In this document: in pieces, positions 16,406 through 19,909 of the stretch | How the letters are laid out: every line of letters begins with the position of its first letter | Position numbering within the stretch: position 1 is the first letter of the stretch | Translations under genes and position numbers: made by a program | The notes under the pieces: model-generated | Databases searched by the model: none | Seen by the model: the letters and a program-made list of their open reading frames with translations, nothing else | What the model was told of the DNA's origin: nothing | NCBI GenBank assembly: GCA_001577025.1 | Contig: LSCF01000008.1 | Coordinates: 1 to 36,738, forward strand | Origin: Fidelibacterota bacterium TCS55 | GTDB lineage: Bacteria; Fidelibacterota; Marinisomatia; Marinisomatales; TCS55 | Direction: 5' to 3' | DNA length: 36,738 nucleotides

Positions 16406-19273
16406 TTATTCAAAAACCAATTGCACCCCGCCTTGTCCTGTATTTGGCTGGTAATAATAGTTAAAAGTAATGGGCATGGGCAATCTCAAATCGAAAAATC
16501 CACCGAGATCAAAAGTAATACCTGCACCCACTGAAATCATGGTCCGTTGAGAATCCACACTCGCTACATGACCAAATATATTTCCCCGAATACGTTTAAG
16601 ATAGGTTAAACCAAATGGGGCGGACCAATCTGGGTAGACCAATGGTAATTTATAGCGCAACCTGCCCTGCCAACCGGATGAAAAGGATCGCCAGGAATAA
16701 CCAGAAGGAAAATGGAATTTGGACAGAAAAATGTGATCGCCCTTATTGGACTCATATTGGAATCGAGTATCAATAAAATCATGCTTCCAAAATCCTTTAA
16801 ATCCATAAATCAGTCGCAAAAATATCTGCTGACCTTGCCATAAACCGCCAAATGGAGAACTGCCACCATATCCATATATTTGCCAGCCGGGATTACCCAA
16901 ATCTCTTATTGCGGCTTCATCCAAAGATGAATAAGCACCTTCCACATAAATAGGGAGAATTCCTCCATTCCGATCATCCATTGATTTAGAAGAGGCTACT
17001 TTTACATTGGGGGGAACATGTAAAAAATCAAAATGGTACATGGTTTTTTTCCGCAACGTGTATATGGAGCCTAATTTGACGTAAGCAAATCGGTTATTGA
17101 TTCCCCTAATTTGATTCGCCAATGGCAGAGATGTGGATAATTTGATGACAGATTCTGACCACTTTTCATTTAGGTGAAAGACCAATGAGTCTTTCACTCG
17201 TCCTTCATCAAATTTTTGGACGAATTTTCCATGATTTATATTTCGATTCATCCACCCAAATTCCACATCAATGATCGGATAAAATTTGCGAATTGTGGAT
17301 CGTAATCGATTTTCTCTTATCCCTTCATTCTGATTGAAAACCATTTCACCAGTGAATGATAATGTACCTAAAATATTATCAGACTGAATCCCAAGTGTAG
17401 GATCAAAATCATCATTGAAAATATATCGGCTATGGAAATTAAAAAGTGTATTCACTCCATTATAATCTGTCACTTTATAGTTTTGTTCGGGCATATCCTG
17501 ATCAAAAATAGAATGGGTATTATATTCTGTTAAATGACCGGTACGAACTGTTCGGTAATCTGAATCAATTTTCGTCCAACTGGATGGCTGAAGTGGTAGG
17601 ATCCCAATCCCATCACCCATTTGGGAATAATCATTAAACAGTAAATATCCTTCTGGTGTCACTGATGGATTATATGCGCCAATCGGTCTGGATGTAATTT
17701 GAAATACCTCTTCGGTTTTAACATGTCTTGCCAATATTTGGTCGATGCCATTGATTTGGGATTCATATAGTATAAAATCCTGATAAAATATGGGATGGTT
17801 AATCTGTTGCCAAGTTTCAGGAATCACCACATCAAATTGCCTATCTTTAATTCGATAAATATATAAGGCCCGCCCATTGTATTTTTGAGATGTCAATACA
17901 ATTTTCTTCCCATCGACCGACCAGGATGGTTTCATAATTAATCCACCATTGGGCGCTTCTACCTGATCAATTATTTTTCCAGTTTTTGCATTTAGAATGA
18001 CCAATAATGCATGTCGCTCTTCTGAGAATGAAACAGCGGTAACTTGCTCTCCATCAGGAGAAATACTGGGCTGATAAAATCGTTTTTTCTCCGTAATTAC
18101 TTTTGTCTCTCCCGACTTGAAATCCAAGACCCTGATATTGGACCAGCTCCTTTTCGTCCACCGAATATCCGGATCATAACCAGACCATACTGCTTTAAGC
18201 CCATTAGAATGATACCCTAAATATTCGACTAGACTTGGGATGGTAGCCAACACTTGTGCTTCACCATCTTTGATTTTTACAATTGCAGTCACCTCACCCA
18301 ATCCTGATTTCAGTGCAACAACATCCCCTTTATTATCCATGACTGGATATCGAAAATGGGTAGTTGTGATTTTTTCTGGCGTCAATAATTCAGCTTGCTT
18401 GGGTTTCAATCCGTTCTGCTGAATTTTCCAGGCCATTTCCAAATCGTAAAAGGTATCGTAATAAATCTGGGGTAAAGATGAACCGGTAGAAGTCTTCATG
18501 GCTCGGGAAAAAGGATAAATCGGATTAGAGGTAAATGGCCATCTCAATGCTTTTTGAATAATCTTAGGCCATGCATGTTGACCATATTCTTTTTTCACAT
18601 GACTTGTGAGATAGTATCCCAATTCATAATGATTAGGGTACTCTTTTTTGTATGATCCATATAAAGCATTCCGGTAGGTGAACCGATTACCAGCTAAAAT
18701 ATGGGCTCTTGCTATTCGTGAAAAATAAGCCGATCTCCCTCGACCGGAGTGAGTCAAGGCCGTTTCAATATCAACTGCATCCCCTTCCCAATACCAATTT
18801 GGAATCATGAAGTGTGTATAAAAAGATTGTGTATTCTGACCAAACAATTTGTGAAGGATACCGCTTACGCCTTGGTTCATGGCATTGAACTGGGCAATAT
18901 GTCTCCCCTCATGTATAGCCAAGTTGCGATACCATTCCGTGTGACCCATTTCGCGATCTAAAAGTGGCACATTATACCATTCAGACATCCATGGCGCTTG
19001 CATGACGTATCCATTAGGCATTGCACCACGATTGGAGAGTACAATGGGTATTTTCTTATGTTGAATGTTGTCCAGAGAATCATAAAGGGCGTGATGAACA
19101 TGATCTATTGTATTGGCCACTCGATTGGCTTCTGATCGGAGCTCCGAAGGAAATATGATCTGATAATGATCGGTCTTAATTTGCTGCCAATGAATGCCAG
19201 GCGGCTCTTGTCCCGTGAGCAGGGATAAGAAAAGGAGGAGAAACCCTAAGGTTTTGCGTAAGTGATTATTCAT
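16406..19273 (-). CDS. Exported zincin / WD40-like propeller / outer-membrane barrel protein
   Basis: A 955-residue protein with a signal peptide (LRKTLGFLLLFLSLLTG). Domain 1 (about 25-290) carries HEGRH (121-125), a HExxH zinc motif, and downstream NWYWEGDAVD (Glu163), matching the peptidase MA-like zincin pattern. Domain 2 (about 310-600) has TolB/PD40-type propeller repeats (ISPDGEQVTAVSFSEER, PSWSVDGKKIVLTSQ, PSVTPEGYLLFND). The C-terminal third is an outer-membrane barrel, ending GAGITFDLGGFFDLRLPMP and a terminal aromatic strand. The start is Met at 19271-19273; an open frame continues 34 codons upstream, but it runs through an intrinsic terminator and gives no signal peptide at its own start. 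Function unknown; probably surface-located. Confidence 0.82.
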   Translation of the reverse strand: MNNHLRKTLGFLLLFLSLLTGQEPPGIHWQQIKTDHYQIIFPSELRSEANRVANTIDHVHHALYDSLDNIQHKKIPIVLSNRGAMPNGYVMQAPWMSEWYNVPLLDREMGHTEWYRNLAIHEGRHIAQFNAMNQGVSGILHKLFGQNTQSFYTHFMIPNWYWEGDAVDIETALTHSGRGRSAYFSRIARAHILAGNRFTYRNALYGSYKKEYPNHYELGYYLTSHVKKEYGQHAWPKIIQKALRWPFTSNPIYPFSRAMKTSTGSSLPQIYYDTFYDLEMAWKIQQNGLKPKQAELLTPEKITTTHFRYPVMDNKGDVVALKSGLGEVTAIVKIKDGEAQVLATIPSLVEYLGYHSNGLKAVWSGYDPDIRWTKRSWSNIRVLDFKSGETKVITEKKRFYQPSISPDGEQVTAVSFSEERHALLVILNAKTGKIIDQVEAPNGGLIMKPSWSVDGKKIVLTSQKYNGRALYIYRIKDRQFDVVIPETWQQINHPIFYQDFILYESQINGIDQILARHVKTEEVFQITSRPIGAYNPSVTPEGYLLFNDYSQMGDGIGILPLQPSSWTKIDSDYRTVRTGHLTEYNTHSIFDQDMPEQNYKVTDYNGVNTLFNFHSRYIFNDDFDPTLGIQSDNILGTLSFTGEMVFNQNEGIRENRLRSTIRKFYPIIDVEFGWMNRNINHGKFVQKFDEGRVKDSLVFHLNEKWSESVIKLSTSLPLANQIRGINNRFAYVKLGSIYTLRKKTMYHFDFLHVPPNVKVASSKSMDDRNGGILPIYVEGAYSSLDEAAIRDLGNPGWQIYGYGGSSPFGGLWQGQQIFLRLIYGFKGFWKHDFIDTRFQYESNKGDHIFLSKFHFPSGYSWRSFSSGWQGRLRYKLPLVYPDWSAPFGLTYLKRIRGNIFGHVASVDSQRTMISVGAGITFDLGGFFDLRLPMPITFNYYYQPNTGQGGVQLVFE

Positions 19274-19319
19274 GAAAATTGGTGGATAATTTATTACAGC
19301 TATCGGATGGACTATAAGT

Positions 19320-19354
19320 AAAAAGCCCCACCCCAATTTCTTGGGACAGGGCTT
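19320..19354 (-). terminator. Intrinsic terminator of the structured RNA
   Basis: A 14-bp stem on the minus strand, AAGCCCTGTCCCAA (19341-19354) with TTGGGGTGGGGCTT (19323-19336), GAAA tetraloop, some G-U pairs, then TTTTT. It ends about 46 nt before the start of the zincin/propeller gene. Confidence 0.85.
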
Positions 19355-19433
19355 AAAACAACCAAAGCACATCAAGGAGTACTCTGTTGTGCTTTTCTCT
19401 TCGCAGAGTCCTTCCTCATAACCTCCTGAAAGA
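19320..19433 (-). ncRNA. Unassigned structured RNA, about 114 nt, with promoter and terminator
   Basis: The predicted transcript starts near 19433 and ends at the terminator. Inside, AAGGACTCTG (19404-19413) can pair with CAGAG-TAC-TCCTT (19374-19386), while AAAGCACA (19388-19395) can pair with TGTGCTTT (19364-19371). The order of arms is that of a pseudoknot, but the last connecting loop is only 2 nt, so the pairings are more likely alternatives. CTCT-GCGA-AGAG is a third possible hairpin. No match to tmRNA, RNase P, SRP or a riboswitch that I recognise. It may be a free small RNA, or a leader controlling the gene downstream. Confidence 0.5.
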
Positions 19434-19439
19434 GGAAAG

Positions 19440-19468
19440 AGTTTAACATCTAATTAATTTATTGTCAA
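19440..19468 (-). promoter_or_regulatory. Sigma70-type promoter of the structured RNA
   Basis: TTGACA (19463-19468, perfect consensus) is followed by a 17-nt spacer and TAAACT (19440-19445, 4 of 6 matches to TATAAT). Transcription would start about 7 nt further, near 19433. Confidence 0.6.
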
Positions 19469-19574
19469 ACATGAAATTCAATTTTTATGTACTAATTAAA
19501 GTTTAATTGATTTAACCTGTAGTTTGCATACTGGCGGCATTGCCATTGATATTGAGCAATATGGATTGGCTAAG

Positions 19575-19797
19575 TTATTTATAGGCATTTTTGATCTATT
19601 CGAATTCCTCTTTTTCACCGTTTCATTGCATTACCACGGGTTAAGTGAATTTCATCCCAATCTTTTGCTCTTTTGGTATATTTGGAGAAACCACGTAGGT
19701 GCTCATTTATTCTTATTTGTAGATGTTGGGTTTGACCAATATATAATCTGTCCAAAGTTTCACTATAGAGTGCATAAGTGTAATACAGGGTATAAAT
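19575..19797 (-). pseudogene. Decayed GIY-YIG endonuclease-family gene
   Basis: Reading the minus strand from 19797 gives an in-frame match to the short GIY-YIG family: YTYALYSETLDRLYIGQTQ, then LQIRINEHLRGFSKYTKRAKDW and RGNAMKR, followed by TGA at 19615-19617. There is no start codon: an in-frame TAA stands at 19798-19800 directly before the conserved strand. Removing one base after AMKR would restore EKEEFE and then IKNA, as expected for the family end, but with a further stop. Lost start, frameshift and nonsense codons together indicate a pseudogene. It sits directly behind the tRNA-Asn terminator. It is a different subfamily from the gene at 10833. Confidence 0.75.
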
Positions 19798-19827: not shown

Positions 19828-19836
19828 TGCTTTTTG

Positions 19837-19909
19837 CTCCGGAGGAGGGACTCGAACCCCCGACCTGGTGGTTAACAGCCACTCGCTCTACCAACTGAGC
19901 TACTCCGGA
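19837..19909 (-). tRNA. tRNA-Asn (anticodon GTT)
   Basis: A 73-nt cloverleaf on the minus strand: 7-bp acceptor stem TCCGGAG/CTCCGGA with discriminator G, D arm GCTC-AGTTGGTA-GAGC, anticodon loop CTGTTAA with anticodon GTT, and T arm GGGGG-TTCGAGT-CCCTC. The outermost anticodon-stem pair is A-C, leaving four clean pairs. CCA is not encoded. It has a TATAAT box upstream and its own terminator. Confidence 0.96.

Follow-up and report, generated by a model that had tools for sequence, protein, structure and literature searches.

The window analysed here, a stretch of 36,738 nucleotides from the Fidelibacterota bacterium TCS55, carries on its minus strand a gene (16406..19273, ATG at 19273) that encodes a secreted protein of the HEXXH (zincin-like) type bearing a TolB-like propeller; an HEGRH motif can be read in its translation. 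The protein has only weak matches in Pfam and NCBIfam (PD40, TolB fragments), is present in 15 of the 40 genomes of the family, and has its relatives in named records among Marinimicrobia/Neomarinimicrobiota MAGs. Upstream of this gene and in the same orientation lies a unit consisting of a promoter, an RNA, and a terminator, which runs on the minus strand from 19468 to about 19318. Further upstream, a tRNA-Asn gene is found at 19836-19909.

The gene preceding the RNA varies among relatives, and can be ppc (G012), a cystathionine-gamma-synthase-like gene (G005), or an aminotransferase-like gene (G006), as judged from their translations, or tRNA-Asn (G030). A phosphoenolpyruvate carboxylase-like C-terminus (LSQSILLNINGNAASMQTTG, followed by a stop) survives as a remnant at positions 19513-19575 of the window (minus strand). 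The RNA of G012 (L024) is immediately preceded by a long, open ppc-like frame that ends in the same way; the remainder of this gene has thus apparently been lost from the window.

The unit begins with a sigma-70-type promoter, TTGACA-17-TAAACT (19440..19468, minus strand), identified by motif scan and already described in the earlier note. One such promoter-like match was found in the region against 1.8 expected, which alone is not above chance. The hexamers and their spacing are nevertheless kept in homologues, where TTGAC-17-TAAnCT recurs upstream of the RNA with the same 17-nt spacing in G005, G006, and G007, and with 18 nt in G030, suggesting that the RNA has its own promoter, conserved in place. 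Judging from the -10 box, a transcript start near 19433 is plausible. Ahead of the promoter is found an upstream box, TACA-N7-TGAATT (19475..19491, minus strand), which precedes the -35 element by 5-6 nt in G000, G005 (with one variant base), G007, G008, G010, and G030. The full pattern TACA-N7-TGAAT-N6/7-TTGA occurs a single time in the genomes of G000, G005, G007, and G010, in each case at the RNA locus. This box is likely an activator site. In some relatives, the region of the box also shows an imperfect dyad, TTAAGTACA-N7-TGAATTAAA.

At the other end, a 14-bp intrinsic terminator with a GAAA loop and a T tail (19323..19354, minus strand), also proposed in the earlier note, is oriented in the direction of the RNA. 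The stretch from promoter to terminator measures about 85 nt, and the small RNA would be roughly 110-130 nt long. Its sequence folds better than its shuffles (z -3.4), although the terminator contributes much to this value. From 5' to 3', the RNA is predicted to comprise a purine-rich segment, a small hairpin (P1), a second helix (P2) with an ACUCCUU loop, and the terminator.

The purine-rich block AGGAGGUUAUGAGGA (19413..19427, minus strand) includes GGAGG at 19426-19422 and GAGGA at 19417-19413; it is conserved in eight homologues, with AGGA invariant. The P1 hairpin CUCU-GCGA-AGAG (19397..19408, minus strand) has a GNRA loop in G000 and G005. A local hairpin can form at this position in G000, G005, G006, G007, and G012, with differing sequences, and is weak in G030. 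P2 pairs AAAGCACA (19388..19395, minus strand) with UGUGCUUU (19364..19371, minus strand). Unguided RNAalifold on a MAFFT alignment returned this helix (AAGCAC/GUGCUU) together with the terminator, and the consensus energy of the hand-aligned core (-7.6, against -2.3 +/- 1.7 for column shuffles) was better than in 299 of 300 shuffles and was matched by the remaining one. Homologues show compensatory changes for the terminator, where all seven pairs with double-sided changes are located, and no resolved one for P2, which is supported by its invariance; the P2 strands of G010, on contig PAIR01000046.1, read AANANACA/TGTANTTT, contain ambiguous bases and are compatible with two compensatory changes.

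The earlier note had proposed two long helices competing with each other. One of them is P2, and is conserved. The other, pairing 19413-19404 with 19386-19374, was not confirmed, as it is mostly destroyed in G005, a 91% identical copy: its 3' strand reads AUGAUUACUCC in place of CAGAGUACUCC, and most of the CUCUG/CAGAG pairing is gone. The proposed competition falls with it, since the argument requires this 10-bp helix, which is not preserved in homologues. A shorter pairing is possible instead between the GGAG at 19426-19423 and the anti-Shine-Dalgarno-like motif ACUCCU of the P2 loop (19375..19380, minus strand), with 4-6 bp in most copies and as many as 9 bp in G006. Between this pairing and the P2 3' strand there remain 4-5 nt, enough to cross a helix of 4-5 bp, so that this pseudoknot and P2 could coexist. 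The CUCC is kept in G000, G005, G007, and G030, shifted as CCUCC in G006, and lost in G008, G010, and G012; a CUCC-type seed is thus present in five of the eight copies, G006 included.

The unit is found as a single copy in each of eight genomes, which belong to one Neomarinimicrobiota family and represent two of its genera. It always lies directly upstream of the same zincin/propeller gene and in the same orientation. DNA searches of relatives retrieved it from G005, G006, and G030, and reading upstream of the gene at 15 loci added G007, G012, G010, and G008. The same reading revealed a degraded element in G001 and none upstream of the gene in G002, G003, G004, G009, G016, and G025. The RNA is missing from about half of the gene-bearing genomes. 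Two search models were used, one including the terminator (R1) and one restricted to the core without it (R2). Over 245 genomes of the phylum, R2 recovered exactly the eight copies at 46-72 bits, with the next match at 22 bits and no credible match in the other 237 genomes. The R1 matches ranking under the true copies reached at most 39 bits, many of them on the terminator part only; those inspected were terminators or coding sequence in which the conserved core is missing. A match in G018, given by both models, lies inside a coding frame. When as many as three mismatches were allowed, a 23-nt pattern matched only the RNA locus, in five genomes. No copy was found in the phages searched, and a pattern match on a viral contig (L072) was discarded as chance, being antisense within a repeat-rich coding frame.

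Placed on the protein tree, presence and absence of the RNA require five changes. The simplest history is that of an old element lost several times, although gains by transfer are also conceivable. In four of the loci devoid of the RNA (L014, L016, L018, and L020), tRNA-Asn and a terminator adjoin the zincin/propeller gene upstream. The order at L019 is tRNA-Asn, terminator, RNA, and second terminator, an arrangement that makes loss of the RNA by recombination between terminators conceivable.

Where the element is intact, its sequence shows constraint. A 20-nt block towards its 3' end (ACUCCUUGAUGUGCUUU...) is nearly invariant among intact copies. The corresponding block CUCCUUGAUGUGCUUUGGUUGUU (19379-19357, minus strand), which contains the P2 3' strand, differs by one base between G030 and G000, though the adjacent protein is only 46% identical. 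Between G000 and G005, the RNA core is 92% and the terminator 97% identical, whereas identity at the third codon positions of the gene start is 61%.

No Rfam 15 family matches the RNA at the gathering cut-off, tRNA-Asn being the only hit in the neighbourhood. The earlier note's suggestion of a new small RNA is supported by a conserved promoter-RNA-terminator unit that has near-invariant blocks in two genera and matches no known family. At a relaxed threshold PyrR, the PyrG leader, NsiR1, and psRNA2 appeared, all far under gathering. The PyrR-binding leader, the PyrG leader, and NsiR1 share with it a weak likeness of shape, a hairpin followed by a terminator, but score 22-25 bits against gathering values of 39-65, and no pyrimidine gene lies downstream here.

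Parallels are also found among C-rich base-pairing small RNAs of Bacillus, where RoxS and FsrA work via C-rich regions; RoxS targets Shine-Dalgarno sites, including that of ppnKB, and has a G-rich sponge RNA as counterpart, RosA (PMC8216469). Like RoxS/RsaE and FsrA of Bacillus and Staphylococcus, the RNA described here is short, has its own promoter and terminator, and presents a CUCC/C-rich loop that could be set against Shine-Dalgarno sequences; the absence of Hfq among the findings for the genus is a further point of likeness. Unlike them, it has no Rfam match, comes from a different phylum, and carries a single CUCC motif that is missing from some copies.

The small RNA gene at this locus, equipped with a promoter and a terminator of its own, is very probably real. 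The preferred reading goes further, and takes it with reasonable though not high confidence as a free-standing small noncoding RNA gene, most likely acting in trans by base pairing. Transcription would start at a sigma-70-type promoter that belongs to the RNA itself and is probably regulated, and would end at the strong intrinsic terminator. The P2 loop ACUCCUU, which resembles the 3' end of 16S rRNA, would act as an anti-Shine-Dalgarno look-alike, pairing with GGAG-type ribosome-binding sites on target mRNAs, while the GGAGG in the 5' segment of the RNA itself may mask this loop through the long-range (pseudoknot) pairing. Sites of the GGAG/AGGA type precede 10 of the 29 genes in the window. 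Pairing in trans is the leading mechanism because of this Shine-Dalgarno-facing loop, the RoxS/FsrA precedent, and the lack of detectable Hfq and CsrA in the genus. Pairing of the RNA with the mRNA of the downstream gene stayed within shuffles in five species. Since CUCC is lost in three copies, an anti-Shine-Dalgarno role would not cover all of them. The preferred reading is also weakened by the failure to find Hfq or CsrA, by the lack of the RNA in about half of the genomes with the gene, and by the fact that P2 is backed by invariance instead of compensatory change.

The main competitor, to which a minor share of probability is given, is a cis-acting leader of the zincin/propeller gene, either a pseudoknot-type riboswitch or a protein-responsive attenuator in which the GGAG/CUCC pairing and P2 set terminator readthrough. 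The eight copies keep their place directly before this gene despite the varying upstream gene, as expected of a cis element, and this constant adjacency to a single gene speaks for a possible cis role; the two pairing options in pseudoknot order also fit. Yet no antiterminator is conserved, the 5' arm of the terminator lies outside both pairings, and its upstream pairing is inconsistent between species. Furthermore, a -10-like GTAATAA, part of TGTAATAAATTA, is located between the terminator and the ATG (19291..19297, minus strand). TGTAATAAATTA or close variants are found in most gene-bearing genomes (a variant in G001, G002, and G003), and this box is probably the gene's own promoter. RNA-less genomes such as G025 are among them, as are some in which tRNA-Asn with its terminator immediately precedes this stretch. 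In six genomes, moreover, the gene occurs although the RNA is absent. A promoter-like box kept where the RNA is gone and the lack of a conserved antiterminator, together with the varying upstream neighbours, favour a free-standing RNA gene over a riboswitch leader, and the leader switch contemplated in the earlier note is accordingly not favoured. H-type pseudoknot leaders, known from the preQ1-II and SAM-II riboswitches, likewise place two helices in pseudoknot order close to the start of a gene. Here, by contrast, there is no Rfam match and no antiterminator, the gene's ribosome site is not sequestered, a promoter-like box belongs to the gene itself, and the terminator is independent. A related and more doubtful reading uses the same GGAG/CUCC pairing and P2 in an undescribed pseudoknotted regulatory RNA that would sense a ligand or the anti-Shine-Dalgarno tail of the ribosome, and would act either in trans or on the adjacent gene for the secreted protease-like protein.

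The five presence changes, the decayed copies in G001 and G012, and the diverged copy in G008 could also reflect a fading, lineage-limited element, once functional, on which selection has relaxed in several lineages while short divergence preserves the others. This is improbable, given that in intact copies some 20 nt have hardly changed across long divergence and the promoter spacing has been kept as well. Still less credible is the translation of a short leader peptide, or of a small protein, from the ATG at 19419 (MRKDSAKRKAQQSTP) with AGGAGG as ribosome site. AGGAGG stands two bases ahead of this ATG in G000 and G005, and a similar open frame exists in G006, G012, and G030. However, this spacing is too short, the ATG becomes TTG in G006 and AAG in G010 and G030 and is lost in G007, and the frame of G008 ends after three codons; start codon and peptide vary across homologues, leaving no conserved open reading frame in the RNA. 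Finally, the conserved 5' block, with its two or three GGA motifs, evokes a CsrB/RsmZ-like sponge titrating an RNA-binding protein, which is highly implausible given that CsrA was detected in control genomes but in none of 13 from the genus; a different GGA-binding protein could still be the partner of such a sponge.

The free-standing small RNA gene thus apparently represents a real, narrowly distributed, and undescribed family. Non-exhaustive word searches of the literature brought up no work on Marinimicrobia/SAR406 small RNAs. This family would give a concrete and testable small RNA system in a marine phylum that is widespread and uncultured, and in a genus for which searches detected neither Hfq nor CsrA; its defined promoter box and near-invariant 20-nt block would serve as probes for metatranscriptomes.
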